The notes under the pieces were generated by a model. It was not told the DNA's origin and did not search any database. It saw only the letters and a program-made list of their open reading frames with translations. Positions 1,948-33,370 of a stretch of DNA of 34,666 bases are shown here, one piece after another. Each line of letters opens with the position of its first letter. Positions within the stretch are counted from its first letter, which is position 1. The translations under genes and the position numbers were made by a program. Source of the stretch: a virus; IMG/VR virus record IMGVR_UViG_3300037882_003954, positions 1 through 34,666 of that record; one strand, 5' to 3'.

Positions 1948-1976
1948 CAATTACGGTCTATAAGACCGGAATGCTC
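1948..1976 (-). promoter_or_regulatory. operator-like site, weak promoter, variant copy
   Basis: On the minus strand GCATTCC runs into a perfect dyad CGGTC-N5-GACCG (1954-1968), then TAATTG. The layout matches the stronger promoters elsewhere in the window (GCATTCC, five-base arms, five-base loop, A/T-rich hexamer 17 bp after the -35 position). Here the -35 is GAGCAT, so promoter strength is doubtful. It overlaps the protease stop and precedes scaffold and capsid genes. Confidence 0.5.
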
Positions 1977-2421
1977 AGTCGGCCACCCTGGCGCGGCCGC
2001 CGATCGAAAACCCGGTGATGAGGCCGCTCTTTGCCTTCGCCCAGAGAGCATCGTCCAAGATCTTCCACCTCTGGACCCATGTCCCCTTCTTGATCACCCT
2101 TCCATTGATGGTGAGATCGGCGATGGTGACGTAGCTCTCGAGGAGCTCGACCTGACGGGCTGATGGATCGGTGGAGTTGAGCCGCCTCTTGCCATGCTGA
2201 AGCCCGTGGCTGCTGGTCGGGTCATACCGAGCCATCCACCTGTAGGCTGCATCGCGCACGGTCTCCTCAGAGTAGATGTCGCCCTGGAGATCGCGCTCGT
2301 TCGGGATGAGCACCTCTCCGAAGATCTCCCTGCGCTCCTCGGCGGGCGCCATGTTGGCAGACTTGAAGATCAGGGCGTTGGTATCACGTGGATCTGCGTT
2401 GAGGTCATGCGGCCATATCAT
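1975..2421 (-). CDS. prohead serine protease, XkdF-like (Peptidase_S78_2)
   Basis: This is probably the maturation protease that cuts scaffold and capsid proteins in the prohead. The 148-residue protein matches the XkdF pattern. It has IFGEVLIPNERDLQGDIYS, then YDPTSSHGLQHGK, LLESYVTIADL, KKGTWVQRWKILDD and the closing SGLITGFSIGG. Counted from the ATG at 2421, the predicted catalytic pair is His76 (in LQHGK) and Ser96 (in LESY), by analogy with the family. An in-frame GTG lies two codons upstream, and neither start has a clear ribosome-binding site. It lies between the head morphogenesis and scaffold genes, the usual order. Confidence 0.85.
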   Translation of the reverse strand: MIWPHDLNADPRDTNALIFKSANMAPAEERREIFGEVLIPNERDLQGDIYSEETVRDAAYRWMARYDPTSSHGLQHGKRRLNSTDPSARQVELLESYVTIADLTINGRVIKKGTWVQRWKILDDALWAKAKSGLITGFSIGGRARVAD

Positions 2422-2448
2422 GGCCACACTGTGGTGGGATCTGGCGGC

Positions 2449-2841
2449 TCAGGTCAAGAAAGGGCAGTCAACCTCATCCATCCCCATGCAGTGGATGATG
2501 TTGGAGAGCCTCCCCAAACCAACCCACCGCCAGCCGGTGGGGCGGCCGACGCGGGCCTTGATGCGGGTGGCGACGTAGTGGTTCGTTCCCCGCTGCATCC
2601 CGACAGGCTCGGCGCCGAAGAACACGGCGACCTGATAGACGGCGGCGTCGGAGATGTACGTGAGCCCGTCGCAGGGACGGCCCGTCATCACCTCCAGCTC
2701 AGCAAAGTCGGAATGCTCCCGACCGTCGACGGCTGAGGACAGCTTGATCGCCTCATCGCCCCACTCGTCGTAGATCTCCTCCGGGTAGACGTCCCGGAGT
2801 TCTGCCTTCATCACAACGCTTTCAACGACAACCTGGTTCAT
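2449..2841 (-). CDS. hypothetical protein in head operon
   Basis: A 130-residue protein of unknown function. The ATG at 2841 has GGGG six nt upstream and is the first gene after the promoter at 2887-2915. The sequence is mixed alpha/beta and acidic at the start (YPEEIYDEWGDEAIKL), with a basic stretch near the end (RIKARVGRPTGWRWVGLG) that could bind nucleic acid or a partner. An internal ATG at codon 11 is an alternative start. Position between the gpF-like gene and the protease suggests a head-assembly role, without direct evidence. Confidence 0.65.
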   Translation of the reverse strand: MNQVVVESVVMKAELRDVYPEEIYDEWGDEAIKLSSAVDGREHSDFAELEVMTGRPCDGLTYISDAAVYQVAVFFGAEPVGMQRGTNHYVATRIKARVGRPTGWRWVGLGRLSNIIHCMGMDEVDCPFLT

Positions 2842-2886
2842 GAAGATCCCCTGTCCTCACTTAGGCGGCTTGATTGCCGCCACTGC

Positions 2887-2915
2887 AAGATACGGGCTTC
2901 ACGCCCGGAATGCAA
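2887..2915 (-). promoter_or_regulatory. promoter with spacer-embedded dyad operator
   Basis: On the minus strand it reads TTGCAT (2910-2915), 17 bp, TATCTT (2887-2892). The spacer carries the dyad CGGGC-N5-GCCCG (2893-2907), and GCATTCCGGGC runs from the -35 into the left arm. It lies in the gap before the gene at 2841, so it should drive the protease-scaffold-capsid genes. It is one of ten related sites. Confidence 0.75.
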
Positions 2916-2922
2916 GGGAGTG

Positions 2923-4132: not shown

Positions 4133-4356
4133 CGCCCACCACTGATCCTGGTCCTTGCCAGGGCGTTCATGGCCTTGCAGGCCCTGTCGTACCTGCACTC
4201 AGGTGACCCAGGGTATTGGTCCATCAGCGCCCTGACGGCTTCACCGTCCTCGAACTGAAACTCGACCTGACGGCCAGAACGTGACGTCCCAACCATCTCC
4301 TGGCCTCGAGATGAAAGGAAGCCGGCGAGACGGTAGTCGGTGATGTGAATAATCAT
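4129..4356 (-). CDS. small conserved phage protein, DUF5659-like
   Basis: This 75-residue protein begins at the ATG that overlaps the portal stop in TGATG. The pattern DYRLAGFLSSRGQEMVG, then VEFQFEDGEAVRALMDQY and a helical end resembles the DUF5659 family, small proteins common beside phage portal genes. The match is by eye and moderate. No catalytic residues are apparent. It probably has a minor role in head assembly or none that can be named. Confidence 0.65.
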   Translation of the reverse strand: MIIHITDYRLAGFLSSRGQEMVGTSRSGRQVEFQFEDGEAVRALMDQYPGSPECRYDRACKAMNALARTRISGGR

Positions 4357-6125
4357 CACAACCTGTCCAGCAAGGAGAGCATCTCCTCAACTTCATCGTC
4401 GCTGAGGCCGGACGGCTCGCCTTCTTGCAGACGCCGCCGCAGATCGCTGACGAGGCCCTTGCTCTCCTCAGAGACCTTGGCCTGCATCCTGTCGCGAGCG
4501 TCGATGATGGTGCCGGCGGCCTGCTCGACGTCACCATTGCCATTGTCTGAGTTCTGAATCTCAGCCAATGTAAGCGTGATGGGCTTTTCCATCCACGAGG
4601 CTCGAATCTCAGGGAAGTGGACGTTGAACACGTCAGCGCAGAGACGGCGACCGTCGGCTGGCGTGATGCAGCCAGCGATGACCATCTTCTGGATCATGTC
4701 GGCCAAGCGCTCGGGATCCCGAGTGATCGGCGTCAGCGTCCTGAACAACCAGCAGAAGATCCCGTTCTCAGGCAGGATTTCCGCGTTCATGAAGTTGTCA
4801 AAATCTGTCCGCTCAGGCGCAAAAACGAGATCCTCAGTCATCTGAATCGACTTGTCGGCGGTCGCGCGGTTGATCTCGGCGACGTCACCGCGGAAGATCC
4901 GAGGCATTCGGAACATGGCGCCGATCTCGTAGCTGCCCTGCTTCTTGAACTCCTGAAAGAGCCCATCGTTGGGGATCTCCTTCGACAGCCTCTCGATGGT
5001 GACCGTGGGCGAAGTGCCGCCGGTCCCCTTCGCCTCAGCCTCGATGATGAGGATCTTGGACCAGTTCTGCTCCCCCTTGAGCTCACCCAGGAAGTTCTCG
5101 ATCTTCTCGGTCGCGCCGGCCCCCAAGCGGCCGCCAGAGACCAGCACCACGATTGGCGGGACCGACTTGTTCTTGAACAAGAAGTAATTGACTTCCGCGG
5201 CAGACCTGACGCCCTGAATCTCAGGGATCGCGCCAATCCACCTGGGAAGTCCATACTGTGACGTGGTGCTGTTCAGGCGGAAGTGGATCACCTCGTTGGC
5301 CGGCACTACGCCCGGCTCAAACCTGGCCATGTCCTCAGGCGACTCGTAGAACTTCCCGGTGGCGGGCGAGAGGGTCCGAGGATCGCCGAACTCCTTGAAG
5401 TATGAGTATTGGGCAAGGATCTCGTCGCGCTGGATGAAGCGCCTGAAGCGGCGTTCGACCGTCTGCCGAGTCCAGTGGACCGGCGTGATGGGCACCCACC
5501 TTTCCGCCTTGACCCACCTTGGGTCGAGGTTGGTCAGTCGGCAGGTGTACGACGGGAGCCGGTTGAAACGAGCAGGCTGGCCCTTGCCGTTGCGGCAGAC
5601 CTCCCAGTAGCAGTTGCCGGTCGACTCCAGCTCAGTACGCGACTCCTTGCGCAGCTTCCCAAAGCCGCCCTGGGGGCCGCCGTCGGTGCATTGCTTGAAG
5701 AAGGCGTCACCCATCACCTTCTCGAGGCGGAATCGAAGGGCCAGGCGCTCCTTCTCAGCCTTGACAGCCTCCGCGCTCGGTAGCTTCGGATCTTCCACGC
5801 CCTCGTCGACAGCCTTGGCCATCAGGAAGTCCGCAATGCGATCGTCGACCTCTGCGGCATCAAGACGGATCGACTGCTCGAGGCGGTGGCCGAAGCCATC
5901 GATGTTCGCCTCCATCGCAGCGATGTTTGGTGGAAGGGCAGAGCTGTGCTCCACGATGTGGAGCAGGATCCTTGGGTCGTATGGCGGCTCGATGGCCCCG
6001 TCGTGGTTGAAGGTGTGGCCACTGCTGGCCTCGGTCCCCTGTCGACGGACGATGCCGTCCATGAAGGACTTGTCGACCTTCACCTCAATCACTCGGGCGT
6101 CAACGCCCGTCTTCGGAGTCGCCAT
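4356..6125 (-). CDS. portal protein (PBSX/PF04860 type)
   Basis: A 589-residue protein that should form the dodecameric DNA entry and exit channel at the capsid vertex. Family features are EVIHFRLNSTTSQYGLPRW near residue 277 and EIQGVRSAAEVNYFLFKNKS, followed by PPIVVLVSGG. After these comes a helical segment with EIGAMFRMPRIFRGD, and then the wing and crown helices. The C-terminus is acidic and helical (SGLSDDEVEEMLSLLDRL). The ATG directly follows the TAA of the upstream small gene, with GGTGG about ten nt before. Between terminase and gpF-like genes, as usual. Confidence 0.88.
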   Translation of the reverse strand: MATPKTGVDARVIEVKVDKSFMDGIVRRQGTEASSGHTFNHDGAIEPPYDPRILLHIVEHSSALPPNIAAMEANIDGFGHRLEQSIRLDAAEVDDRIADFLMAKAVDEGVEDPKLPSAEAVKAEKERLALRFRLEKVMGDAFFKQCTDGGPQGGFGKLRKESRTELESTGNCYWEVCRNGKGQPARFNRLPSYTCRLTNLDPRWVKAERWVPITPVHWTRQTVERRFRRFIQRDEILAQYSYFKEFGDPRTLSPATGKFYESPEDMARFEPGVVPANEVIHFRLNSTTSQYGLPRWIGAIPEIQGVRSAAEVNYFLFKNKSVPPIVVLVSGGRLGAGATEKIENFLGELKGEQNWSKILIIEAEAKGTGGTSPTVTIERLSKEIPNDGLFQEFKKQGSYEIGAMFRMPRIFRGDVAEINRATADKSIQMTEDLVFAPERTDFDNFMNAEILPENGIFCWLFRTLTPITRDPERLADMIQKMVIAGCITPADGRRLCADVFNVHFPEIRASWMEKPITLTLAEIQNSDNGNGDVEQAAGTIIDARDRMQAKVSEESKGLVSDLRRRLQEGEPSGLSDDEVEEMLSLLDRL

Positions 6126-6362
6126 TTACTTGACCACCGCCCGACCGGCCGGCCGGCGGGGCCTGGGCTTGACGTGGATCGAGATGACGTTGTCGGGGCA
6201 TACGGAGGCGATCACCACCGAACGGCAGCGCCTCGCCATCTCGGCCTTGGCTGAGGACACGGCCGCGTCGACCGTCCTCGCGTCCAGTTGAAAGTCATCC
6301 AACTGGAGACGCTTGACCTCGCGCGGGCTCCGACGCTCGAACACCTTCACAGACCACTTCAT
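6126..6362 (-). CDS. small hypothetical protein between terminase and portal
   Basis: A 78-residue, strongly basic protein (pattern CRSVVIASVCPDNVISIHV, ending KPRPRRPAGRAVVK). The ATG overlaps the terminase stop in ATGA and has AAGGAG upstream. The predicted fold is alpha/beta with a basic tail. No family is recognised. The tight coupling to terminase and portal suggests co-expression with packaging genes. Confidence 0.65.
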   Translation of the reverse strand: MKWSVKVFERRSPREVKRLQLDDFQLDARTVDAAVSSAKAEMARRCRSVVIASVCPDNVISIHVKPRPRRPAGRAVVK

Positions 6363-7849
6363 CCGACGCTCCTTGCACTCACTTCGCCGCCGCGTTCCCT
6401 TGGCTGCTGCACAGTCGCGAGGGCCATCGCCCAGAAGATGTCGGCGTGGCCTTCTTTGGTCCGCTCTGATGCAGAGCGATCGGTAATGTACAGCACCTGG
6501 TTGCCCGCAGTCACCATCCGCTTGATGCTGTGAATGTCGTTGACGGTGTCGCGATCGCGGGCCATCATGATCCGCCGCTGCTCCATGCGGATCTTGAAGT
6601 TCGTCGCCATCCGAGCCTTGCTCGTGACGTTGAAGTCGACACCTTCGACAATCTCGTCAAAGTCGTAGTGCAGATCTTCGTACAGGGGCAGGCCCAGGCC
6701 TGTCTTGTCCACCCGAAGCCTGACGATCGGCGAGCGCTGAAGCAGTGCGCGGCAGATGTCCTTCTGCTCAGGGAACGGCATGTTGTGGAGGACGCGCCGG
6801 TAGACCTCGGTGTGGCGCACCTCGTCCTCGCCGCCGACCTCGTCAAAGAGTGAGATAACCGTCCGGTCGCGAACGCGGCCGAAGTCGACACCGCCGACAA
6901 GGCGGCCCTTCAGCTTCGGGAGGCTGCCGAGGTCGTCGGTGACCTCCATCTCAGGGTCGGTGCATGGGAGGATCAGCTCGTAGGGGAAGTAGGCGTGCGC
7001 CTCATCGACGAACGCGCACTCGAACTCCTGCTGGAAGTCCTCTTCAGTCAGGCTTTCGTACTGAGCGATGAGGCCCTGGTTGCCGAACTTGTAGACCCTG
7101 TCCCTGGTGGACATCGTCTCGGCCTGAAGGACAGCCAGTGGGACGTTGGTGCAGAAGACGCTGCAGAACCACCATGGGACGAAGAACCTCTGGAACTCCT
7201 TGTACGGCTTGATCTCCTCTTTGAAGATCTCCCAGAAGATCCCCCGCTGGCCGAGCGGGGTCGACATGATCGTGAACTGCCCCTGGGTGCGCGCGATGAG
7301 CACGGTTCCAGAGGTGTAGAGGTGTCGGTCGTTGGGGGCGTGGGCCAGCTCGTCGTAGTAGATGTCGCCGTTCTTGCCACGCGGTGGCCTTGCCGGCAGC
7401 GAGATGATCCTCGACTCGCTCGAGACGCCCTTCCCAGGAGTCTCGAATGAAAGCTCCGTCTTGGTGTCGGTTCGGATCCTGCGCTGGTAGGCCAGGGGCA
7501 ATCCCTCATAGAGGGACTTGGCGACGGTGATCTTCTCCTTCGCGTCAGCCAGGTTGTAGCTGACGTGGATGGATCGATGACCCTCTTTGAGGTGACAGCG
7601 GGCGAGCGACTCGGCGCCGCTGATGAACGAAAAGCCGACCTGGCGACTTTTGTTCACGATGCGGAACCTTGGCCGGATCCCAGACCTTGGATCCCTGAAG
7701 CTCAGGAATTCCTTCTGGTACTCGTCAAGTACCAGCGGCTTGCCATCAATGCGGACAAGCCCCTCAAGGAATCCGGCCTCGGTGGCCAGCCAGTTAGCGG
7801 TTTCTGAGGCGTCTCGCTTGACGATGACGCCAGGTATTGCGGCACTCAC
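6359..7849 (-). CDS. terminase large subunit (Mu gp28-like ATPase-nuclease)
   Basis: The 496-residue packaging motor pumps DNA into proheads and cuts it. Counted from the GTG at 7849, the ATPase domain shows a Walker A-like SRQVGFS (68-74), Walker B DIYYDE (162-167) and coupling motif FTIMSTPLG (192-200). The RNase H-like nuclease domain supplies Asp322 (GGVDFG), Asp381 (RVDKTGLG) and Asp470 (GHADIFWAMA). The open frame extends 77 codons upstream, but that part reads through the previous gene in another frame and has no protein-like character. The GTG lacks a clear ribosome-binding site and abuts a 7-bp hairpin. No small terminase was recognised. Confidence 0.85.
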   Translation of the reverse strand: MSAAIPGVIVKRDASETANWLATEAGFLEGLVRIDGKPLVLDEYQKEFLSFRDPRSGIRPRFRIVNKSRQVGFSFISGAESLARCHLKEGHRSIHVSYNLADAKEKITVAKSLYEGLPLAYQRRIRTDTKTELSFETPGKGVSSESRIISLPARPPRGKNGDIYYDELAHAPNDRHLYTSGTVLIARTQGQFTIMSTPLGQRGIFWEIFKEEIKPYKEFQRFFVPWWFCSVFCTNVPLAVLQAETMSTRDRVYKFGNQGLIAQYESLTEEDFQQEFECAFVDEAHAYFPYELILPCTDPEMEVTDDLGSLPKLKGRLVGGVDFGRVRDRTVISLFDEVGGEDEVRHTEVYRRVLHNMPFPEQKDICRALLQRSPIVRLRVDKTGLGLPLYEDLHYDFDEIVEGVDFNVTSKARMATNFKIRMEQRRIMMARDRDTVNDIHSIKRMVTAGNQVLYITDRSASERTKEGHADIFWAMALATVQQPRERGGEVSARSVG

Positions 7850-7880: not shown

Positions 7881-8525
7881 TCAACGACCGCGGCGGGCCT
7901 TCTTGCACTCGCTGCTCTCAGGCAGGCCGACTCTGCTGTTGCAGATACAGACGGTCTCCGGGCGGAACTCCCCGCCGTACTTGGGCAGCATCGCGCGCTG
8001 GCAGTCCATGGACGCCTCGCGACGCTGCCGATCGGTCGGCTCGACCTGGGCAGGCTGACTGGGGCTGGCGATGGCGCCACCGCCGCCCATCATGGGCAGG
8101 AAGGCCCAGGTGAGCAGCACGGCACCACCAAGAAGGGCTATCAGCAGCGCGTAGTCCACCATGGTGAACTCCTTCTCGCCGATCGTGATCGGCTCCTGGC
8201 GGCCGTCGAGACCTGCGCGCAGCAGCTCGGCGTGAGCCTTATGCGTCTGTGACTTGACCCATGCGTCGCCGTCGGCTCCAGCGTCGGCCGCCGACTCGAC
8301 CGGCTCGACAGGCTGCGTCTCCGCAGCAACGATCGACCTGGCCTTGGCGACAGCCTCGGCCGTCACGGCGACGCTATGGACGAGTTTATGGACCTCGGCC
8401 GCGGTCGCGCCCCACTGAAGAAGCCCCTGCTCGGCAGCGAGCCCGGCCGCCGCCAGCGCGCGGAAGTCGTCGCGGTACTTGTGATGTACCGCATGTACGA
8501 GCAAGACGCCTTCGCGAAAAATCAT
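7881..8525 (-). CDS. single-pass membrane protein, unknown
   Basis: A 214-residue protein. The ATG at 8525 has GGTGGGGG upstream and is the first gene after the promoter at 8567-8595. The N-terminal 130 residues are helical, alanine-rich and acidic (LAAAGLAAEQ, AADAGADGDAW). A hydrophobic segment follows (ALLIALLGGAVLLTWAFL, about residues 125-145), then a Gly/Pro/Ser linker and a Cys-rich end (MDCQRAML, VCICNS, SSECKK). It heads the packaging operon. The position recalls a holin-like or terminase-associated gene, but nothing identifies it as either. Confidence 0.65.
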   Translation of the reverse strand: MIFREGVLLVHAVHHKYRDDFRALAAAGLAAEQGLLQWGATAAEVHKLVHSVAVTAEAVAKARSIVAAETQPVEPVESAADAGADGDAWVKSQTHKAHAELLRAGLDGRQEPITIGEKEFTMVDYALLIALLGGAVLLTWAFLPMMGGGGAIASPSQPAQVEPTDRQRREASMDCQRAMLPKYGGEFRPETVCICNSRVGLPESSECKKARRGR

Positions 8526-8566
8526 GATCACCCCCACCGTCAGTCGCCAGGATCGGCGATGTGGTG

Positions 8567-8608
8567 AAGGTATCACGCTGCATTCCGGGCGTCAAACCCG
8601 GAATGCAG
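8567..8608 (-). promoter_or_regulatory. promoter of packaging/head operon with 31-bp dyad
   Basis: On the minus strand it reads TTGACG (8590-8595), 17 bp, TACCTT (8567-8572). Over it lies the longest dyad of the set (8578-8608): CTGCATTCCGGG and CCCGGAATGCAG, 12-bp perfect arms around seven bases. The predicted transcript starts near 8560 and leads into the gene at 8525 and on to terminase and portal. A protein on this dyad would cover the -35. Confidence 0.75.
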
Positions 8609-8637: not shown

Positions 8638-9261
8638 TCAGTAGACGCGGAAGAAGACGCGGATGCGGATGCGGCCGGCGGTGAGGGCGCTCATGTTGAT
8701 GTCGCCCGACGTGAACGAGGCCTTGATGGACTTGCCGCCGATCTTGCGGCGGAAGGTGGGGGTCGCGTTGGCCCCGGATCCGGGCAGGTTGGCGGCGGCC
8801 TTGACGCTGACGCCGTCGAGCAGCAGATCGCCCTCGCTCGCACCGTTGTAGCCGATGTCGGCCACGAACGTGTTGGGCGTGGCGAAGGCCACCTCGGTCT
8901 CGACGCTGAAGCCGGTCTGGACCGCCCCGTCGGGGAACACGTAGGTGTCGGTGAACGCCTGGGCGGTGTCGCCGTCGGTGAAGTCGCTGACGTCCTGATC
9001 GGCGACGGCCTCCAGGATGAAGACCCGGCAATACTCACGCTTGCCGTGGTCGCTCCCGTGGTCGTCGGGCAGGACGTTGACGGTGATCTTCTCGTCGGCG
9101 ATCAGCTCGTTCAGGGTCGCCTCAGCGTACTCCAGGGTCTTGGTGTCGATGTTGCGGAACGTCCGGGTCTCCCCGACGCGGACATCACCCCCCTCGGGAA
9201 GGGGCACCTTGATGACCTCGGCGGCCTCGCCGGTGGTCAGATTCTCGATGATGACCTTCAT
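8638..9261 (-). CDS. putative virion structural protein, paralogue A
   Basis: A 207-residue beta-rich protein. AAGGAG precedes the ATG at 9261. The N-terminus (MKVIIENLTTGE), the core (FTDGDTAQAFTDTYVFPDGA) and the C-terminus (IKASFTSGDINMSAL, ending in RVFFRVY) align with the divergent gene at 9375-10601. The two are therefore paralogues with conserved ends and different middles. Likely roles are decoration, head fibre or adhesion, inferred from beta-rich sequence and position next to the head operon. No good promoter is seen in the 113-bp divergent gap, so it may need a phage activator. Confidence 0.7.
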   Translation of the reverse strand: MKVIIENLTTGEAAEVIKVPLPEGGDVRVGETRTFRNIDTKTLEYAEATLNELIADEKITVNVLPDDHGSDHGKREYCRVFILEAVADQDVSDFTDGDTAQAFTDTYVFPDGAVQTGFSVETEVAFATPNTFVADIGYNGASEGDLLLDGVSVKAAANLPGSGANATPTFRRKIGGKSIKASFTSGDINMSALTAGRIRIRVFFRVY

Positions 9262-9374
9262 GCGAACTCCTTCATGGCCCCTTCTTCATCGGGCACGTGG
9301 CAGGCTACATTGATATCCACCTGAACGGCAAGGATCTGATAGCGTGAAAAGACTGTTTTGCGGAGGATGATCGC

Positions 9375-10601
9375 ATGAAAGTCGCTGTTACGAACCTGAC
9401 CGGGCTCCTGCGTACTTATCAACTGCCCGACAGCGGTCGGGTCCAAGGGGCCAGCACCATGACCTTCGTCGGCGTCGACACGGCTGCCTACGAAAGGGTC
9501 CGGGCGGATCTTGAGCGGGACGCAGGCCTCGGCCTGATCTCGTTCACCATCCACCCGGACAGTGGCACTGAGTCACGACTCCTCGAGATGCGTAGCCGGA
9601 CCTTCACGGTTGACGCTGAGATGCTGACCGATGACGACGGGAGCCAGGCGCTCACCGACAGCTTCGTCTTCCCGGATGGAGCGAGGCTGATCAACTCCTA
9701 CGTCACCCGGGTGGCCATGACCGGGGCCAGCCAGCTCGCGCCCGCCCGCATCCAGGGGGCCGACGGGCCCACATTCGCCCTGGTCGATGGTCAGACGTTC
9801 GTCGCTGAGGTCAACGGTTCTCCGGCGACCGTGACGTTTGAGGATGGGACCTACAGCTACTTCGAGCCGTCTGCGGATGAGCCATACAGCCTGGGGACAA
9901 CCTCGTGGTTCGTGAGGCTCAACAACGGTCCGCAGGAGAGTGTGGACTTCCTGGCTGCCGACTTCGCCAACCCTGCAGAAGCGACAGCCGCGGAGGTGAT
10001 CGCCCGACTCAACATCCACTTCGCCGGCCGCGCGGTGGCGGCCCCCTCTGGCGACAAGTGGCGTCTCACGAGCAACATGATCGGGGTCCAGTCGAGCGTC
10101 ACGAGCTCTGGCGGATTCGTTCCATGGGCGTTCGATGCCGGGACGAGCTCCAGCACCGGGACCTCGGTTGACGTCACCGCCACCACTCTTGATGAGGTCA
10201 AGAACGCGCTTGAGTTCTCCTGGGGCAGCAGCGGCCTGAGCGTCGACATCACGGGCGGATCGCTCAATGTTCGGACCGTTGGTAATGGCAGCAGCAACAC
10301 CATCGAGGTCCAGGCGCACACCGCTGCAGCGCTCGGTTTTGAGGTCGGCGAGTACACCGGCACGGACGCGACGACCGCCTCAATCGACTTCGGCGTCGGC
10401 AGTCTCGCTGACCGCCTGGCTGACGGCATGAACCTCTTGGTGAGCGGTGATGGTCGTGGCACTGGCACGAACGCCGTGCCGACCGATGCGATCGACCTGT
10501 CCGGCCTGTCGCTGCGGGCCACGGTGGTGAGCAACGAAGACGTCTCCGAGCTGGCTCCTGGTGGAGGCAGCGCTTCGGTTACTGCGGTCTACGTGGTCTA
10601 G
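9375..10601 (+). CDS. putative structural/adhesin protein, paralogue B with inserted repeats
   Basis: The only coding gene clearly on the plus strand, 408 residues. GGAGG precedes the ATG. Residues 1-125 (MKVAVTNLTG ... TDDDGSQALTDSFVFPDGA) and the last 35 residues (LSGLSLRATVVSNEDVSEL ... TAVYVV) match paralogue A. Between them lie about 240 residues with two beta domains of a kind seen in sheath- and fibre-like phage proteins. The first is TAAEVIARLNIHFAG plus DKWRLTSNMIGVQSSV. The second is TLDEVKNALEF plus GSLNVRTVGNGSSNTIEV, ending AALGFEVG. Rich in Ser, Thr and Gly. The stop lies one nt from the end of the convergent gene, with no terminator between. Confidence 0.75.
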   Translation: MKVAVTNLTGLLRTYQLPDSGRVQGASTMTFVGVDTAAYERVRADLERDAGLGLISFTIHPDSGTESRLLEMRSRTFTVDAEMLTDDDGSQALTDSFVFPDGARLINSYVTRVAMTGASQLAPARIQGADGPTFALVDGQTFVAEVNGSPATVTFEDGTYSYFEPSADEPYSLGTTSWFVRLNNGPQESVDFLAADFANPAEATAAEVIARLNIHFAGRAVAAPSGDKWRLTSNMIGVQSSVTSSGGFVPWAFDAGTSSSTGTSVDVTATTLDEVKNALEFSWGSSGLSVDITGGSLNVRTVGNGSSNTIEVQAHTAAALGFEVGEYTGTDATTASIDFGVGSLADRLADGMNLLVSGDGRGTGTNAVPTDAIDLSGLSLRATVVSNEDVSELAPGGGSASVTAVYVV

Positions 10602-10866: not shown

Positions 10867-10984
10867 CTCAAACACCTCCTGATGCAGCGCTCACCGTGAG
10901 CGACACGAGCACCGAACGACCATCCACACGGAGATGGCCGATCGCTACCAGCGTCGTAATGCATTACACTCAGCCAGCATCGGC

Positions 10985-11013
10985 TTGACGCGAGTCGTGT
11001 CCTGACCTATAGA
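10985..11013 (+). promoter_or_regulatory. plus-strand promoter with embedded near-palindrome
   Basis: TTGACG (10985-10990), 17 bp, TATAGA (11008-11013), on the strand opposite to nearly all genes here. The spacer includes a near-dyad GACGCGA-G-TCGTGTC (10987-11001, 6 of 7 arm pairs). Its sequence differs from the GCATTCCGGGC operators. A transcript would start near 11020 and enter the tandem hairpins. No plus-strand gene with a ribosome-binding site follows. Confidence 0.6.
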
Positions 11014-11046
11014 TAGCGCGCACTTCGGCACCCGTGGTCGTCCTCG

Positions 11047-11099
11047 GCCACATTGTCACGCATGTGGCTCCATGCCTGGATCCTACCCCAGGCATGGAG
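11047..11099. ncRNA. tandem perfect hairpins, possible small RNA or operon end
   Basis: First stem: GCCACAT/ATGTGGC (11047-11053 with 11062-11068). Second stem: CTCCATGCCTGG/CCAGGCATGGAG (11068-11079 with 11088-11099). Both loops are eight nt, and the stems share base 11068. Read from the plus promoter, the hairpins would form the body of a short transcript. Read from the minus strand, they form the 3' end of the recombinase operon. Neither strand has a T-run after the stems, so a standard terminator is unlikely. The strand and function are unresolved. Confidence 0.45.
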
Positions 11100-11106
11100 T
11101 CATCAA

Positions 11107-11382: not shown

Positions 11383-11387
11383 GAAAT

Positions 11388-11633
11388 CTACTCCTGGCCC
11401 GCGGGACTGCCGCAGGCCGCCGTCTGTAGACGGACTTCGGCCACCTGCTCATCAATGCGTCCGATCATGTCGTCGTAGTGCTTGACCCGTGCTGATGGAT
11501 CAAGGCCCAGAAAAAGAGCGCCCGGCAGACCAAAGCCGGCCAAGTATTCCCAATGATCCCTTTCCGCAAGGAAGAAATCTCGCTGCACGGCAAGGCGCAG
11601 GAGTCGATCGGCCGCGACGTCGGCGGGGATCAT
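11388..11633 (-). CDS. small hypothetical protein downstream of recombinase
   Basis: An 81-residue protein starting MIPADVAADRLLRLAVQRD. The ATG at 11633 overlaps the recombinase stop in ATGA. The frame is open much further upstream, but that part runs through the recombinase gene and looks non-coding. Features are ERDHWEYLAGFG and a helical end. No family is recognised. The coupling suggests expression together with the recombinase. Confidence 0.65.
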   Translation of the reverse strand: MIPADVAADRLLRLAVQRDFFLAERDHWEYLAGFGLPGALFLGLDPSARVKHYDDMIGRIDEQVAEVRLQTAACGSPAGQE

Positions 11634-12863: not shown

Positions 12864-12915
12864 TCGATCCCCCAGCCGGCCAGGTGTCGGGGCCAGCGCC
12901 TCAACCTCATGGAGG

Positions 12916-12944
12916 AATGTAGCCGACAGGCGCCCGGAATGCAA
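12916..12944 (-). promoter_or_regulatory. promoter of recombinase operon with operator half-site
   Basis: On the minus strand it reads TTGCAT (12939-12944), 17 bp, TACATT (12916-12921). GCATTCCGGGC runs from the -35 into the spacer. The second arm (CTGTCGGC) is only a partial match to the dyad. It should drive the genes from 12863 to 11107, including the recombinase. Confidence 0.75.
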
Positions 12945-12962
12945 CATGAAAATGTCAGAATC

Positions 12963-17667: not shown

Positions 17668-17689
17668 GGAATGCTCCTCAGTGTGATTG

Positions 17690-17746: not shown

Positions 17747-17747
17747 C

Positions 17748-18125: not shown

Positions 18126-18138
18126 GGGAACTCCTACG

Positions 18139-18183
18139 CGGGCTAAATGCCCGTATATCAGCATATCAGCCGGCCGGCTTCAA
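18139..18183 (-). promoter_or_regulatory. promoter with dyad at transcription start
   Basis: On the minus strand it reads TTGAAG (18178-18183), 17 bp, TGATAT (18155-18160). The dyad CGGGC-N5-GCCCG (18139-18153) lies just downstream, at the expected start site rather than in the spacer. GCATTCC is absent here, so this is a variant member of the family. It serves the gene at 18125. Confidence 0.55.
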
Positions 18184-19047: not shown

Positions 19048-19067
19048 GACCACCTGTTCAAAAAAAG

Positions 19068-19955: not shown

Positions 19956-20179
19956 GGATCCACCGTACCACGCATTCCGGGCGCTGTCAAACGGTCCTCA
20001 AGATCAAGGATCGCTTCATTCCATACCGCGAGGACCGCCTTGCGCAGGCGGATCTCCTCGTATCGATACCGATGGCCGGCTGGGGTCATTGGCGTGAACT
20101 CCACCATCAGCCTGAGCTGGGTGCGGGCCTCGTCAGCCATCACGCGCATCCACTCGAGGTGCGCCTGAGCCTCACCCAT
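19952..20179 (-). CDS. small helical hypothetical protein
   Basis: A 75-residue protein, helical, rich in Arg and Glu (MGEAQAHLEWMRVMADEART ... YRYEEIRLRKAVLAVWNEA). It overlaps the previous gene by eight nt and the next by four. Its 3' end holds the promoter at 19962-19990, so the last codons (DRLTAPGMRGTVDP) are constrained by both uses. No family is recognised. Confidence 0.6.
   Translation of the reverse strand: MGEAQAHLEWMRVMADEARTQLRLMVEFTPMTPAGHRYRYEEIRLRKAVLAVWNEAILDLEDRLTAPGMRGTVDP
19962..19990 (-). promoter_or_regulatory. promoter inside gene end, operator half-site in spacer
   Basis: On the minus strand it reads TTGACA (19985-19990), 17 bp, TACGGT (19962-19967). The spacer carries the motif in reverse orientation (GCCCGGAATGC). 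It lies within the last codons of the gene 19952-20179 and drives 19955, the HTH gene, the tRNA and a membrane protein. Confidence 0.7.
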
Positions 20180-23078: not shown

Positions 23079-23127
23079 GGAATCCCCCACTCAGTTGAGG
23101 CCACACGGCCTGGTCAGACACCCGGTG

Positions 23128-23156
23128 AGTATACGGGCGCGCAGCCCGGAATGCAA
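23128..23156 (-). promoter_or_regulatory. promoter with perfect spacer dyad
   Basis: On the minus strand it reads TTGCAT (23151-23156), 17 bp, TATACT (23128-23133), the best -10 of the set. The spacer holds the perfect dyad CGGGC-N5-GCCCG (23134-23148), joined to GCATTCC. It drives the 528-residue protein gene and the genes after it. Confidence 0.8.
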
Positions 23157-24011: not shown

Positions 24012-25100
24012 CTATCGCCCCTTGATGACGACCCCGATCCCACCAGAGACGACATCCATCGTGATGTTGGCCCCCTGGGCCCGGCCGGTCTCGAGCACCA
24101 CCCCGACGCCGCCGCCGACCGTGCCGATGTTGATGCTGGTCTTCGACTGAAGCGCCTCGCGGGCCGCCCTGAACACGCGGGCCTCGAGCCGGGGGTAGGA
24201 GAGCTTCTCTGCCTGGAGGAGCCACTCGCACAGGACGTGCTCTCCGTACGACATGAGCCCCTTCAGGTCACTGCGAAGCTGGTCGGTCGGCCGCTGGCAC
24301 AGCGGAAGGCCACCACGAATCCTCGGATCGATGTTGGCCATCAGCAGACCCCGCCGGGCCGGGTCGGCGGTATCGCTGCTCAAGGCCGCATCGTAGACGG
24401 CCTCAAAGTCGAAGATGCCGCCGATGTTGGACGTAGCCTGGGCGACGCGGGTGGCGTCGGCCTTGATGACCGACCTGGCAAACACGCGAAGGCCGTTCTG
24501 GAACGACCACTCGAGAGGCGCCGACTTCAAGTTGGTGAGCATGGAACGGATGCTGCCGCTGCACTTCTGCACGAGCAGGGCGTGCAGCATGCGCGGCAGG
24601 GTGATCCCCTCAGCGGCGGCCGCTTCGGTGATCTGCGGATCGATGGGGCCGCCGATCATCTTGGCCAGCTCGCCGAGGTCAAGCGGAACCCGGAGGCCAT
24701 CGACGGTGTGGTGGGTGGTGTCCGGGTCGACCTCGTACCCGGCCACGAAGTCGTAGATGCGGCCACCTTTCTTGGGAGCCTCGAGGAACTCACCACAGGT
24801 CGCGCAGTTGGTCACCCGCCGCCAGTCGGCGGTGCCGGGCACCCGCTCGATGGCGAGGCCATGGCCGTTGGGGCAGGTGGGCGTCGACTCGGTCAGCGAC
24901 CGGATCGCATTGAGCGCGATCCGGCGCAGCGGACGAATCGGCAGCATGTCCATGTCATCCTCGATGAGGCCGCTGAGGAAGCCGTACTCAGCGACGCCCT
25001 CCGGGCCGATGATCGAAGCCAGCGCCTCGGCCGTGAGCGAGGCGTGAAGGTTTCCCAGGGTTGCGGCAAGGGCCGCATAGTGAAGATCTGTGATTTTCAA
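24012..25100 (-). CDS. large hypothetical protein with zinc knuckle
   Basis: A 362-residue protein. The N-terminus is helical. A CPNGH ... CATC pair (Cys76, His80, Cys99, Cys102) suggests a metal-binding knuckle. The middle is helical. The C-terminus has paired glycine-rich strands (GTVGGGVGVVLETG, then VVSGGIGVVIKGR). The start is a TTG with GGGG seven nt upstream. It overlaps the stop of the 55-codon gene in TTGA. No family is recognised. Confidence 0.65.
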   Translation of the reverse strand: MKITDLHYAALAATLGNLHASLTAEALASIIGPEGVAEYGFLSGLIEDDMDMLPIRPLRRIALNAIRSLTESTPTCPNGHGLAIERVPGTADWRRVTNCATCGEFLEAPKKGGRIYDFVAGYEVDPDTTHHTVDGLRVPLDLGELAKMIGGPIDPQITEAAAAEGITLPRMLHALLVQKCSGSIRSMLTNLKSAPLEWSFQNGLRVFARSVIKADATRVAQATSNIGGIFDFEAVYDAALSSDTADPARRGLLMANIDPRIRGGLPLCQRPTDQLRSDLKGLMSYGEHVLCEWLLQAEKLSYPRLEARVFRAAREALQSKTSINIGTVGGGVGVVLETGRAQGANITMDVVSGGIGVVIKGR

Positions 25101-25264: not shown

Positions 25265-25626
25265 TGACCAACACCCTCAGCCAGAAGGGCTTCGACGATG
25301 GCGTCAAAGCGACTCGGGTGGGTCCCAGGATCGCTGAAGTACATACCAGACAAAGCCGTCCTCGCGGCCCACTCTGGCGCGCCGTCAGCATTCTCCCGCA
25401 CGGCAACCACCTCAACCAGCTCACCCACCAGCCGCTGAAGTACCCGGTGAAGCCACCCCTCGACCGAGCCCGTCTCGTCGGCCAGGTTGGGCGCACAGAA
25501 CTTTGTGCGACCAACCCACCACTCGACGCAGAATTGTAGCTTTGAGGCTCGAAACCCATCCGCCACCGACCTGATCTCGTAGATCGCCAGCAGGGCGACG
25601 GCTTTGGCCTTCTGTTCCTCGTTCAT
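25261..25626 (-). CDS. hypothetical protein
   Basis: A 121-residue protein (MNEEQKAKAVALLAIYEIR, then CVEWWVGRTKFCAPNLADE). The middle is a helix (VLQRLVGELVEVVAVRENA), then HPSRFDAIVEALLAEG. The ATG overlaps the upstream stop in TGATG. No family is recognised. Cys and Trp are enriched in the first half. Confidence 0.62.
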   Translation of the reverse strand: MNEEQKAKAVALLAIYEIRSVADGFRASKLQFCVEWWVGRTKFCAPNLADETGSVEGWLHRVLQRLVGELVEVVAVRENADGAPEWAARTALSGMYFSDPGTHPSRFDAIVEALLAEGVGQ

Positions 25627-25958
25627 CACGAGAAAAGCCCAGCCGCCGCCCGCAGCTTGGTGATATCTTCCACCCGCTGCGCATTCTTCCGCTGGCGGTT
25701 GAATGCGGCCTTGGCCTCCGAGAAAGCATTCACCCCGGAGTAGTCTCGCTCAGGCAGGTCGACCTGAATCTCCCCGTCTGAAACGGCGAACCCCTCAGGG
25801 CGGAGTGTGAGCGTGACCGTCCCGCGCACCTTCTTGAAGTAGATGCCAGCGCCGTTCCGGCTCGACCAGTCCGCAGCGTGCTCAGCGCCCCACTCAACCC
25901 GCTGATCAGCGGCGAGTAGGTCTTGAACCAGTCTCAGTGCCTCGTCCTTGACCGCCAT
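25626..25958 (-). CDS. hypothetical protein, first of operon
   Basis: A 110-residue protein (MAVKDEALRLVQDLLAADQ, then GIYFKKVRGTVTLTLRPEG). A beta-rich middle is followed by a basic helix (FNRQRKNAQRVEDITKLRA). GGGGG precedes the ATG, and the promoter 26004-26032 lies upstream. No family is recognised. Confidence 0.64.
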   Translation of the reverse strand: MAVKDEALRLVQDLLAADQRVEWGAEHAADWSSRNGAGIYFKKVRGTVTLTLRPEGFAVSDGEIQVDLPERDYSGVNAFSEAKAAFNRQRKNAQRVEDITKLRAAAGLFS

Positions 25959-26003
25959 CACTCACCCCCACTGGAAAGCGCCTGAAACCCAGGCGACTTG
26001 GAG

Positions 26004-26032
26004 ATGGTAGCCCGGAATGCAGGCCGTGTCCA
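26004..26032 (-). promoter_or_regulatory. promoter with half-operator beside the -10
   Basis: On the minus strand it reads TGGACA (26027-26032), 17 bp, TACCAT (26004-26009). GCATTCCGGGC (26010-26020) abuts the -10 rather than the -35. No second arm is seen. It drives the genes from 25958 to 23166. Confidence 0.65.
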
Positions 26033-26997: not shown

Positions 26998-27249
26998 TCA
27001 AACCCTCGGCGGTAACCGCCTTGCAAGATCGCTGGCAGCTTCTATCAGCGATCGGATCGTCTTGAATGTGTTTCGCATTGAGGCCACCGCCTCTGGGTGG
27101 ATCCGGCTAGGCGGTACAGCGTGGAGATCGCCCAGGACCCGCTGCAGGTCGCCCGCCAGGAGCAGCAGCTCGATGCGGACGTCATGCCACCGCTGGGGTG
27201 ACCGGCACGTGCAGCCGCACCGAGGGCACTCCGGGCGACGATCAACCAT
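26998..27249 (-). CDS. small zinc-knuckle helical protein
   Basis: An 83-residue protein. It opens with CPRCGCTC (a likely metal knuckle), then a helical bundle (RIELLLLAGDLQRVLG, then TFKTIRSLIEAASDLA) and a basic tail. It overlaps the previous gene by eight nt. The site before the ATG is weak, so translation may be coupled. No family is recognised. Confidence 0.58.
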   Translation of the reverse strand: MVDRRPECPRCGCTCRSPQRWHDVRIELLLLAGDLQRVLGDLHAVPPSRIHPEAVASMRNTFKTIRSLIEAASDLARRLPPRV

Positions 27250-27988
27250 CGCCGGCCGGGACTTCTTCGTGAGGGTCGGTCACGTTGACACCAACCGCCG
27301 ATGCAGCGGATTTGATGGCCCTGATGACCATGGCGCGATCCGCGCGACTCCTCCATGAGTCAGGAGCCCGCGCGACACCGCCCTCATCAGAGAAGGCTAC
27401 GGCGTGCCCATCGACCGTGACCACGCCCTTGTTGATGTCGGGGAAGAAACCTTCATCAAAGAGCTTCAGCGCGACACGCTGCTCAATGACGAGACGGTCA
27501 CCAATAGCCCTCATGATGACCGCGACATCATCAACGATGCGGACGATCGAGACGAACACGCCACCGTCGCAGATGCTGACCTCGACGCCGCCGACGACCA
27601 GCTTGCTCACCGAGCTAATGGCGATCCGCTTCTTGGTGACGGCCGCCAGGTCAGCGGCCAGGAGATCGATCTGGCTGAGGTCATCGTTGAGGCGGCCGAG
27701 GGTCCCTTCAAGCAGGGCGATCAGCTCCTTGATGCCAGCCCGCATGGCCACCTTGTCGCCGCCCAGCGAGTAGGACCGCCCGCGAAGGAGGTCGGACGAG
27801 AAGACGCTCATCTGAAAGGCGAGCTCGCTGACGCGGTCGCTTTCCGTTGAGTCGTCGGGATTGGCGAGGATCGCGTTGCGCACGTTGTTGATGGCCTGAG
27901 CCATCCGGTCGCCAGCGACGATCATCGGCAGGATGATCCCCTTTGCGGCAACCTCTCGCATGTCTTCGTCGAGGGACACTGGCTTCAT
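27242..27988 (-). CDS. hypothetical protein, first of operon
   Basis: A 248-residue protein. The N-terminal half is helical (MKPVSLDEDMREVAAKGII ... LLEGTLGRLNDDLSQIDLL). The middle is beta-rich (SKLVVGGVEVSICDGGVFV), then VIMRAIGDRLVIEQRV and an acidic end. AGGAG lies six nt before the ATG, and the promoter 28020-28048 precedes it. No family is recognised. Confidence 0.65.
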   Translation of the reverse strand: MKPVSLDEDMREVAAKGIILPMIVAGDRMAQAINNVRNAILANPDDSTESDRVSELAFQMSVFSSDLLRGRSYSLGGDKVAMRAGIKELIALLEGTLGRLNDDLSQIDLLAADLAAVTKKRIAISSVSKLVVGGVEVSICDGGVFVSIVRIVDDVAVIMRAIGDRLVIEQRVALKLFDEGFFPDINKGVVTVDGHAVAFSDEGGVARAPDSWRSRADRAMVIRAIKSAASAVGVNVTDPHEEVPAGDG

Positions 27989-28019: not shown

Positions 28020-28048
28020 ATACTACGGGCACGTCGCACGGAATGCAA
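28020..28048 (-). promoter_or_regulatory. promoter with imperfect spacer dyad
   Basis: On the minus strand it reads TTGCAT (28043-28048), 17 bp, TAGTAT (28020-28025). The spacer holds an imperfect form of the dyad (CGTGC-N5-GCCCG), joined to GCATTCC. It drives genes from 27988 to 26067. Confidence 0.7.
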
Positions 28049-28665: not shown

Positions 28666-28667
28666 TG

Positions 28668-28967: not shown

Positions 28968-28988
28968 CACGAATCCCCTCCTTGTCGG

Positions 28989-29642: not shown

Positions 29643-29645
29643 GAT

Positions 29646-30256: not shown

Positions 30257-30271
30257 GTCAACTCCTTGGTT

Positions 30272-30535: not shown

Positions 30536-30773
30536 CAGTACCTCGATCCCCACCAAATCCGAACTCGGAGATGTCATAGTCGCATATGTCTGATGCCAAA
30601 GCCGCGCGGACAGCTTGCTCAATAGCATCTGGCGAGCGGCGAAGCATCTCTCGAACGCCATCGGCAAGCCGTCCCCTCAACTCACTTCGCCACCAGCCTG
30701 AGTCTTCAAGCCTTGCGATGCAGTCTGGGCAGAGACATTGGACATCTCCCGCCCCTTGTCCGTCAGCACCCAC
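30477..30773 (-). CDS. small Cys-containing protein, start overlaps upstream gene
   Basis: A 98-residue protein from a GTG with GGGGAGG six nt upstream. CLCPDCIARLEDSGWWRSEL forms a Cys pair, followed by a helix (RLADGVREMLRRSPDAIEQ) and an acidic end. The start lies 97 nt inside the winged-helix gene. The alternatives are a TTG at 30680, which overlaps the upstream stop, and an internal ATG at 30641. The 3' end overlaps the next gene. Confidence is moderate because of the double overlap. Confidence 0.5.
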   Translation of the reverse strand: MGADGQGAGDVQCLCPDCIARLEDSGWWRSELRGRLADGVREMLRRSPDAIEQAVRAALASDICDYDISEFGFGGDRGTDEEDGLHPMDLRRSGEAGC

Positions 30774-31246
30774 TTTCGACCTCCCCTTGTCGGAACTCGC
30801 ACGAGCAGGCCCTGGTTGACGAGTTCGTCAACGGCCCTGTCTGCAGCCTCCTTTGCCATGCCGAGCGACTGGCGCATCTGCGCCGCGCCTGGCGACCCTC
30901 CGCCTTGGATGTGCTTCAGAATCCGGTCGACATCACTATCAAGCTCCTTCGGCCGCCAGTGGCTGACCGGAGGCACCTTGAACTTGCAACGGTGTTCCTC
31001 CATGGTCAGCATGCCATCAGCCCTGGGTAGGCGAACGAAGTAGCGCCACTCGCCCTTCCGGCCAGGCTCAATCTTCATCTCCACGAGGCCCAGGCCGTGG
31101 AGAGCCTTTGCGGTCCGCATGTGGATACACTGGGCACTGGCGGCCATGCTGCGACGGGGGTAGACGAAGGCTTGGAGTCGGCCGTCAGGCCCCATTGACT
31201 CAAGCGCCTCCATGGCGGCCTTCTGAGGCCTTGTGAGCGCCTTCAA
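30677..31246 (-). CDS. winged-helix DNA-binding protein
   Basis: A 189-residue protein with two winged-helix-like regions. The first is residues 1-80: LTRPQKAAMEALESMGPDG, MAASAQCIHMRTAKALHGLG, LVEMKIEPGRKGEWRYFV. The second is residues 105-165: DVDRILKHIQGGGSPGAAQM, ADRAVDELVNQGLLVRVPTR, KWVLTDKGREM. The start is a TTG that overlaps the upstream stop in TTGA, with AAGGGG upstream. It is a candidate regulator or DNA accessory factor. The last 32 codons overlap the next gene. Its LTRPQ arginine uses AGG. Confidence 0.7.
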   Translation of the reverse strand: MKALTRPQKAAMEALESMGPDGRLQAFVYPRRSMAASAQCIHMRTAKALHGLGLVEMKIEPGRKGEWRYFVRLPRADGMLTMEEHRCKFKVPPVSHWRPKELDSDVDRILKHIQGGGSPGAAQMRQSLGMAKEAADRAVDELVNQGLLVRVPTRGGRKWVLTDKGREMSNVSAQTASQGLKTQAGGEVS

Positions 31247-31518: not shown

Positions 31519-31982
31519 GGCGAAACCTTCGCGCCGCCAGCAGTCTCAGCCAAGGCATTGGCCACCTTCAGCGCCCATTGGTTGCGAGGATCCTGGCCGG
31601 CGATCGCCAGCCTTTTAATAATTGATTGCGAAGCGTGAACCAGCTCAAGGTACGGATGGTTGGACAACGCCCTGGTCCACCTCGACCGACCCGCCGCCTC
31701 CTTCTCCCGGCCGGTGGTGAGCTGGAACGTGTACTCCTTGCCGCCGAAGGACTGAGTCACGATCGTGGTCTTGGTCACCCGGAGCACCACGAGATCCACC
31801 GGATGGTCGCTCGGCCGAACGCGCCGGCCTCGGCCATTTCCCTCGCCCAGCAGCTCCCACTCCGCGCACATTGCGGCATGCTCAGCCGCCCGCCTCGCGT
31901 CGACCGCGGTACGGATCGACTCGAGCTGCGCGACCTCCTCGGGGAGGAGCTTCGACCAGGAGAAATTGAATCGCTCGTTCAC
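31515..31982 (-). CDS. hypothetical protein
   Basis: A 155-residue protein. The N-terminus is acidic and helical (FNFSWSKLLPEEVAQLESI), then AEHAAMCAEWELLGEGNGRG and a beta section (LVVLRVTKTTIVTQSFGGK, then EYTFQLTTGREKEA). The end is helical (ASQSIIKRLAIAGQDPRNQ). The GTG overlaps the upstream stop in GTGA, with GGTGAGG before it. No family is recognised. Confidence 0.62.
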   Translation of the reverse strand: MNERFNFSWSKLLPEEVAQLESIRTAVDARRAAEHAAMCAEWELLGEGNGRGRRVRPSDHPVDLVVLRVTKTTIVTQSFGGKEYTFQLTTGREKEAAGRSRWTRALSNHPYLELVHASQSIIKRLAIAGQDPRNQWALKVANALAETAGGAKVSP

Positions 31983-32287
31983 GCCTCACCACCTGTTGAG
32001 TTTTGGAAGTCGAAGAACGCCTGTCGCGCCGCTTCAAGGGCCTTCAGCGCGCGGTGGGCCCGTTTTCCGAAGCCGCCGATGAGGACACTGCCATCATCAC
32101 GCTTCCGAACGTCGGCCATCCCCTCAATACCGAATCCTGGCCCGCCCAGGGCCCATACCTCAAGCGGCTCACCATCATCAGACGTGCCGACGAGCCAGTT
32201 GATGGGCCGCCTGTAGCGACCCTCGAGAGCCTGAATCGCTGACGTGATCAGCGGCTCGAGCAGCTTCATCCGCTCTTCGGTGATCAC
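31979..32287 (-). CDS. hypothetical protein
   Basis: A 102-residue protein (MKLLEPLITSAIQALEGRY, then INWLVGTSDDGEPLEVWAL and GPGFGIEGMADVRKRDDGS), ending in a helix (HRALKALEAARQAFFDFQN). The GTG start overlaps the upstream stop in GTGA, with GAGGTGG upstream. Mixed alpha/beta, no family recognised. Confidence 0.62.
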   Translation of the reverse strand: MITEERMKLLEPLITSAIQALEGRYRRPINWLVGTSDDGEPLEVWALGGPGFGIEGMADVRKRDDGSVLIGGFGKRAHRALKALEAARQAFFDFQNSTGGEA

Positions 32288-32892
32288 GGCACCACCTCAC
32301 GCACTTCGATGGCTCGGCGGAAGATGCCAGCCGCCTTGGAGAAGACCTCATCGGGTGGCGTCGAGGTGTAGGTGTTGGCTGCCAGCCTCACCCACGCTGC
32401 CGCCATATCGATCTCCAGACAACTGCTCTTCAGCCACTTGGCGATGCGGGTCAGACTGCAAACAGCAGTGTAGGCAATACCAGTGCAGGTGAAGACAACC
32501 TGCCCAAGCGAGTCGATGATGCAGTCCACGTCTGATCCGCTGTCGAGCTGGTCGAGAGCCGCGCCGCCGGCAAACCCGTCGACCATGGGGAGGATATCCC
32601 TCACCAATCCCAGAATGATGACCCTGGCCCGCTCGTTCTCGACAGCCTTTGTTGACCGCGTGTTCACCAGTAGCGGCGCGAGCGGTGCGAGGTAGATCCC
32701 CCTCCGCATGTCGCCATGGTCGCCCTCGCCAAGCATGTCGTTGAACCTTCGGCCGAAATCAGACAGCACTCGACACACGCATTGAGGCCGATCCGTCTTC
32801 GGCTCGCCGGCCAGGAGGGCGACAGCCTCCATCAAACAGGTGCCATCCCTTCCGGCATGGCTGCCGAAGCCAAGGGTGAGTTCCGTGTTCAC
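32284..32892 (-). CDS. conserved phage protein, HAGRDGTCLMEAVALLAGE family
   Basis: A 202-residue protein of a family I recognise from phages and bacteria as conserved hypothetical. The signature is LGFGSHAGRDGTCLMEAVAL near the N-terminus, then LAGEPKTDRPQCVCRVLSD and FGRRFNDML. The first Cys and His may bind metal or be catalytic, but no function is established. A helical part follows (VIILGLVRDILPMVDGFAG). The GTG overlaps the upstream stop in GTGA, with GAGG about ten nt upstream. The longer open frame upstream is not protein-like. Confidence 0.72.
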   Translation of the reverse strand: MNTELTLGFGSHAGRDGTCLMEAVALLAGEPKTDRPQCVCRVLSDFGRRFNDMLGEGDHGDMRRGIYLAPLAPLLVNTRSTKAVENERARVIILGLVRDILPMVDGFAGGAALDQLDSGSDVDCIIDSLGQVVFTCTGIAYTAVCSLTRIAKWLKSSCLEIDMAAAWVRLAANTYTSTPPDEVFSKAAGIFRRAIEVREVVP

Positions 32893-33317
32893 TTCGACAT
32901 CGCCTCCAGCTCGGCGAGGGCTGCTGCGAGCAGCTCCGGCTTGACCACCTGGCGACCACCGGCCGAAGTGCAGCCGTCGACGATGCGAACACGCCGCGTC
33001 TCGACAGCTCGAGAACTTGAGAAGGTGGAACCACGGGAGTGGCCCCACCACACCAGCTCGACCGTCACCGGCTTCGCACCCTTTGGGGGCCGGATGTAGA
33101 CCGGCTCACCCTGGAAGAAGCTGAGGCCCTCGATCTTGACGGCCCGCTCACCCAGCTCGGCGTAGAGCGAGTTTGCTGGGTGAAGGCTGTCGGTGAGCTG
33201 GCCGAGGCGATTCCTGGCCACCCTCACCCGCTGCTCAGCCTCCGCCAACTCCTGACGGACCTTGCCGACCGCCTCATGGGCGGAGTGGTAGGCATCTTCC
33301 AGGTTGACGATGGGCAT
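32889..33317 (-). CDS. hypothetical protein with N-terminal coiled coil
   Basis: A 142-residue protein. A coiled coil (AVGKVRQELAEAEQRVRVAR) at about residues 16-45 precedes a beta-rich part (AVKIEGLSFFQGEPVYIRP, then VELVWWGHSRGSTFSS and RVRIVDGCTSAGG). The end is a helix (PELLAAALAELEAMSK). AAGGAG precedes the ATG, and the promoter 33342-33370 lies upstream. The function is unknown. Confidence 0.66.
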   Translation of the reverse strand: MPIVNLEDAYHSAHEAVGKVRQELAEAEQRVRVARNRLGQLTDSLHPANSLYAELGERAVKIEGLSFFQGEPVYIRPPKGAKPVTVELVWWGHSRGSTFSSSRAVETRRVRIVDGCTSAGGRQVVKPELLAAALAELEAMSK

Positions 33318-33341
33318 CAGAGACTCCTTGTTGACGGGCGG

Positions 33342-33370
33342 AAGGTATCAGCAGATCGCCCGGAATGCAA
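33342..33370 (-). promoter_or_regulatory. promoter with operator half-site
   Basis: On the minus strand it reads TTGCAT (33365-33370), 17 bp, TACCTT (33342-33347). GCATTCCGGGC (33358-33368) overlaps the -35. The second arm is absent. It drives the long gene string from 33317 leftward. Confidence 0.72.

Follow-up and report, generated by a model that had tools for sequence, protein, structure and literature searches.

Ten minus-strand sites and the operons behind them

The viral record IMGVR_UViG_3300037882_003954 (34,666 bases, 63% GC) was analysed over its whole length, referred to here as the window, and its minus strand holds nearly all of the genes. The original prediction, made from the letters of the sequence, had described ten minus-strand promoters that share one motif, and the coordinates of all ten sites proved right. 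As it had claimed, nine of the sites carry GCATTCC, eight in the sense orientation (the G of the motif lies at minus-strand positions 1974, 2913, 8606, 12942, 23154, 26020, 28046 and 33368) and one reversed (19972-19982). The regulatory motif is real and well resolved, and its sequence is novel.

At five sites the motif itself supplies the -35 hexamer, TTGCAT, in agreement with the prediction, and the -10 hexamer follows after 17 base pairs (bp). These five are termed canonical here. The promoter at 33342..33370 (TTGCAT-N17-TACCTT with an extended -10; GCATTCCGGGC at 33358-33368) is placed to drive the long right-end operon from 33317 to 28072, with operon extents throughout inferred from gene spacing. 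The site at 28020..28048 (TTGCAT-N17-TAGTAT) combines GCATTCCGTGC with a right arm GCCCG upstream of gene 27242-27988, and those at 23128..23156 (TTGCAT-N17-TATACT) and 2887..2915 (TTGCAT-N17-TATCTT) have a full inner dyad. The former precedes 21492-23078, which encodes a phrog_1735 protein, and the latter precedes 2449-2841 and the gene of a protease-like protein (1975-2427). The site at 12916..12944 (TTGCAT-N17-TACATT) is upstream of 12639-12947, the gene at 12305, and the tyrosine integrase gene (11630-12304).

Three sites, 8606, 19984 and 26020, are off register, in that the motif is displaced or, at 19984, reversed, and each has a -35 hexamer of its own 17 bp from TAnnnT. The bivalent site at 8567..8606 (TTGACG-N17-TACCTT with an extended -10) lies upstream of 7881-8537 and the genes for the large terminase (6359-7849) and the portal (4356-6125). 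The promoter at 19962..19990 has a perfect -35 and an extended -10 (TTGACA-N17-TACGGT), carries the reversed motif (19972-19982, plus strand) in its spacer, and is placed to drive 19656-19955 together with the gene of a 170-residue helix-turn-helix (HTH) protein (19147-19659). The transcript may be leaderless, since its predicted +1 falls on the ATG at 19955. The site at 26004..26032 (TGGACA-N17-TACCAT), which precedes 25626-25958, has its motif (26010-26020) directly next to the -10.

The last two sites are provisional members. The weakest, at 18139..18153, consists of the inner dyad CGGGC-N5-GCCCG alone and lacks GCATTCC; it lies 3' of an extended -10, TGATATGCT, and upstream of 17748-18164. 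The site at 1948..1976 keeps the canonical register with degenerate hexamers and has GCATTCCGGTC with a matching right arm, GACCG; it precedes 1149-1874 and the major head protein gene (187-1149). The genes for the major head protein, the protease-like protein, the portal and the large terminase all lie at the left end of the window. Sigma70-like hexamers with a 17-bp spacer had been proposed for all ten sites; this holds for eight, while the pairs at 1948 (GAGCAT/TAATTG) and 18139 (TTGAAG/TGATAT) are poor. It was also an overstatement that nearly every gap long enough for a promoter has the motif, as 9262-9374, 10867-11106, 11383-11629 and 17668-17747 are without it.

Enrichment, promoter register and half-sites

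The core 11-mer GCATTCCGGGC is the most frequent 11-mer of the window, with seven exact copies compared to 0.05 expected from dinucleotide shuffles of the window. When one mismatch was allowed, 12 copies were found compared to 1.4 expected, and the maximum among 300 shuffles was five. The heptamer GCATTCC by itself was weakly enriched (12 copies compared to 5.9 expected, with 12 reached in one of 100 shuffles). The prediction that the motif is not equally common in coding DNA was borne out, since 11 of the 12 near-copies of the core are wholly non-coding, though non-coding DNA makes up 12.7% of the window. The binomial probability of at least 10 of 12 near-copies falling in non-coding DNA is 6e-8, and this value and the non-coding share are approximate because the home-made gene caller overlooks some genes. 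The near-copies at 14892 and 27226 are without a strict-form promoter and are in line with the 1.4 expected as background. Between sites, the identity of the core is 0.88-0.90, while that of the flanks is 0.20-0.31, at the background level of 0.27; the sites are therefore neither recent duplications nor copies of a mobile repeat.

When the five canonical sites (2913, 12942, 23154, 28046 and 33368) were aligned on the motif, they followed the form TTGCATTCCG[G/T]GC-N10-TAnnnT. TAnnnT is found at offset +21 in five of the eight sense sites, with at most one occurrence at every other offset; these five also have TTG at offset -2, and every other offset has at most two TTG. A scan for TTGnnn-N17-TAnnnT that was blind to the motif gave eight matches on the minus strand, seven of which are motif sites (the exception is 7884), and one on the plus strand; the other spacings tried gave zero to three matches per strand. 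A stricter rule, with at least five of six positions of TTGACA, 17 bp and TAnnnT, matched three times on both strands, and all three matches are the off-register motif sites. The probability of this coincidence, judged from the area of the footprints, is about 1.6e-6. Almost every recognisable promoter of the fragment has the motif overlaid on it. Because the motif is shifted or reversed at promoters that each have an independent -35, it sits on promoters and is not the promoter itself.

Across the sites the left half-site hardly varies. The right arm is complete at 8606, is represented by its inner part alone at 2913, 23154, 28046 and 1974 (as a GGTC/GACC pair), and is absent at 12942, 26020, 33368 and 19984. 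Dyads of the CGGGC-N5-GCCCG type number six, as predicted, and are exact at 2893, 18139 and 23134 and variant at 8606, 28046 and 1974. At 2913 and 23154 the dyad fills the 17-bp spacer from TTGCAT to the -10 except for the two bases TC, and at 8580-8606 there is a near-perfect 27-bp palindrome, GCATTCCGGGT-N5-GCCCGGAATGC, whose N5 is TTGAC and which is centred on the site's own -35. The constancy of the left half, set beside a right arm that ranges from complete to absent, suggests that the half-site would be the basic unit of recognition and that a second half-site would strengthen it.

Five leaders that follow motif-bearing promoters (2842-2886, 8526-8566, 12863-12915, 23079-23127 and 25959-26003) have a run of GGGG or GGGGG a few nucleotides 5' of the start codon, and several of them have a short hairpin. 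When the hairpins 3' of the promoters were folded, most were no better than shuffled sequence.

A predicted repressor regulon and competing explanations

The sites probably serve as operators for one DNA-binding protein, encoded by the phage, that represses host sigma70 promoters. The main argument is the anatomy of the off-register sites, since a protein that blocks polymerase could act from shifted sites, and a protein that recruits polymerase from a fixed place could not use them. The inference of one blocking protein from the shifting position of the motif had been part of the original prediction, and it gains from the finding that each off-register site has an independent TTGACA-like -35 at 17 bp. 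The repressor would recognise the asymmetric core (TT)GCATTCCGGGC as a half-site, and an inverted second half-site 5 bp away, where present, would strengthen its binding. In most operons the operator would be fused to the promoter, such that TTGCAT serves as the -35, the inner dyad forms the 17-bp spacer, and the -10 hexamer has replaced the outer right arm of the operator. The bound protein would then deny RNA polymerase access to each transcription unit, from early genes through integrase and terminase/portal to head, and the result would be a coordinated silencing of gene blocks, as in lysogeny. The tyrosine integrase of the window is consistent with a temperate phage.

The best reading is that the regulon spans the early, DNA-modification, integrase, terminase/portal and head operons as well as the operon of the HTH protein. 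The phage-wide scope originally proposed stands across this contig and extends no further, as the contig ends inside the head operon. The HTH protein (19147-19659, minus strand) is the leading candidate on the contig for the predicted repressor or an autoregulator, because its operon has an operator of its own and the only perfect -35; its gene would sit behind its own operator-bearing promoter. A tRNA-Arg gene with a CCT anticodon (19067-19141, minus strand) lies immediately 3' of the HTH gene. The winged-helix protein at 30677-31213 is a second candidate regulator. Single-sequence models of both proteins were too poor for structure searching. A more specific proposal is considered less likely than not: a new repressor family, possibly represented by the HTH protein, would control the whole phage through composites of half-site and -35, dyad and spacer, and -10, with the head and terminase/portal operons individually repressed like early genes.

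Several observations weigh against repression by such a protein. The HTH candidate matches HTH_3 only below threshold (E 0.089), no homologue of it was found in phages, plasmids or IMG/VR, and its single-sequence structure model is uninformative, with a predicted local distance difference test (pLDDT) score of 36. Since the contig is truncated, the true repressor gene may lie off it. The phage has no close relative in the collections searched and the motif family occurs only here, so that the link between motif and regulator is untraceable across genomes and the regulator is not identifiable by comparison. In addition, TTGCAT agrees with the -35 consensus at three of six positions, and the five canonical promoters could therefore depend on an activator instead.

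In that alternative a phage activator would bind the motif, take the place of sigma70 contacts at a weak -35 and switch on middle or late operons, as T4 MotA and the P1 late activator Lpa do at weak -35 hexamers. The poor -35 and the fixed register of the five canonical sites, at which the motif starts 21 bp before TAnnnT, are what such an activator would need. However, at 8606, 19984 and 26020 the motif lies elsewhere, once reversed, beside a good -35 of the promoter's own, which a fixed-position activator excludes. Early, integrase and head operons alike are preceded by sites, and the window shows no match to P1 Lpa. An activator is considered unlikely. A regulator with two roles, which would repress the three strong off-register promoters, activate the five canonical ones and autoregulate the HTH operon, could account for the fact that the two classes of promoter differ both in -35 quality (TTGCAT or TTGACA-like) and in motif position. 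However, the canonical motif overlaps the -35 and spacer that polymerase needs, which favours occlusion; this explanation appears improbable.

The constant spacing of core and TAnnnT at the five canonical sites would also suit a distinct promoter class that has the motif as one of its elements and depends on a sigma factor or polymerase that is phage-encoded or alternative. The varying position of the motif disfavours a sigma factor as it does a fixed-position activator, given that shifted and reversed sites exist, and the window proteins that were scanned have no match to a sigma factor or RNA polymerase. We regard this as very improbable. Least probable of all is that these are dispersed partition (parS-like) or methylation sites tolerated in promoter gaps. 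Intergenic palindromes can serve partition, and an N6/N4 methyltransferase gene (16133-17101) is present, which is the sole support for the methylation target that the original prediction had named as an alternative. However, the motif fits promoter hexamers exactly, no ParA or ParB match was found among the scanned window proteins, and the sites of a methyltransferase would not be confined to promoters.

Comparison with other phages and remaining gene content

The repressor regulon, as predicted here, is best read as one of a familiar kind whose motif is new in sequence and, within the collections searched, limited to this phage. The closest parallel is C1 of phage P1, which has 22 dispersed operators of 17 bp with the asymmetric sequence ATTGCTCTAATAAATTT (PMC8546580; annotated in NC_005856). 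In both phages dispersed asymmetric sites lie at the sigma70 promoters of many operons, and their placement varies over the -35, the spacer, the -10 and the flanks. The TTG of the operator can be embedded as the -35 in both; P1 operators mostly contain TTGCTC, which is used in this way at P1ban, PpmgR and P2pmgT. The palindrome at 8580-8606 resembles the inverted double sites of P1 at ban and c1, and the P1 repressor operon is under its own operator, as is the operon of the HTH candidate here. The sequence here, with its GC-rich core, differs from that of P1, and exact fusion to the -35 with TAnnnT at 17 bp is found at five sites here, while an identical test finds it at one of 20 in P1. The terminase/portal and head operons here have the motif at sigma70-type promoters of their own, whereas in P1 many of the morphogenesis operons are read from Lpa late promoters. 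No tblastn match to C1, Coi or Lpa was found at E of at most 1 in the window, which is an incomplete contig, and the phage is not placed in the C1 family since it has no C1 homologue.

In cluster A mycobacteriophages (L5/TipsytheTRex), 20 to 30 copies of a 13-bp asymmetric site are bound by one immunity repressor; the sites are oriented with transcription, and the early promoter Pleft contains at least one of them (PMC9283540, PMC6550527). Most of these stoperators lie away from promoters and block elongation in an orientation-dependent manner, whereas all strong sites here are at promoters, the one at 19972-19982 is reversed, and several form dyads. The cluster O phage Corndog has more than 30 dispersed 17-bp palindromic repeats of unknown function (PMC4351075). 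The likeness lies in a dispersed dyad, which in Corndog occurs beside SigA-like and leaderless promoters; the difference is that about a third of the Corndog repeats are within genes and no tie to promoter hexamers has been described for them. The present phage would extend, with a GC-rich case, the short list of phages in which one dispersed operator, not a single lambda-like switch, silences many promoters.

Relatives were sought with the terminase, head protein, portal, HTH protein, methyltransferase and a 528-residue protein. In IMG/VR the best head-protein match has 39% identity, which makes footprinting across relatives impossible, and the terminase relatives reach no more than 34% identity among the listed phage records and 28% in IMG/VR. 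The canonical form was also scanned in the GTDB species collection, and the motif as a family was found in no other genome searched. Single exact copies in a viral record of 48% GC (L001) and inside a coding frame of a Nitrososphaera contig (L034) read as chance, as do the one promoter-form site in each of six unrelated viral contigs; in a further contig (L035) the copy is plausibly promoter-like and precedes an ATG, but it is the only one. For this uncultivated phage without a close relative, sequence alone yields a map of promoters and a predicted immunity regulon, and the motif offers a way to search for the repressor and the host.

Other iterated sequences were seen among the records examined. 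In one head-protein relative (L027), the palindrome TTGCAACCGGTTGCAA occurs about six times in 13 kilobases (750, 2542, 3627, 5414, 7954 and 9331), and in another (L015) there are about five full and several partial palindromes of the AACCCGGGTT type in 21 kilobases; no promoter link was shown for either set. TTAAGGAGTG is repeated nine times in L022, mostly just before start codons as a start-associated repeat, and six times in L024.

The record is very probably a fragment, as tail and lysis genes are absent among the window proteins scanned. An exonuclease gene lies at 15273-16136. The divergent genes 8638-9261 (minus strand) and 9375-10601 (plus strand) are paralogous (33% identity over 113 residues, E 6e-12), and the 113-bp gap separating them is without the motif. 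The product of 24012-25100 (minus strand), encoded in a phage operon, matches EAD5 (effector-associated domain 5), a domain of bacterial conflict systems, at 27.9 bits compared to the Pfam cut-off of 27.

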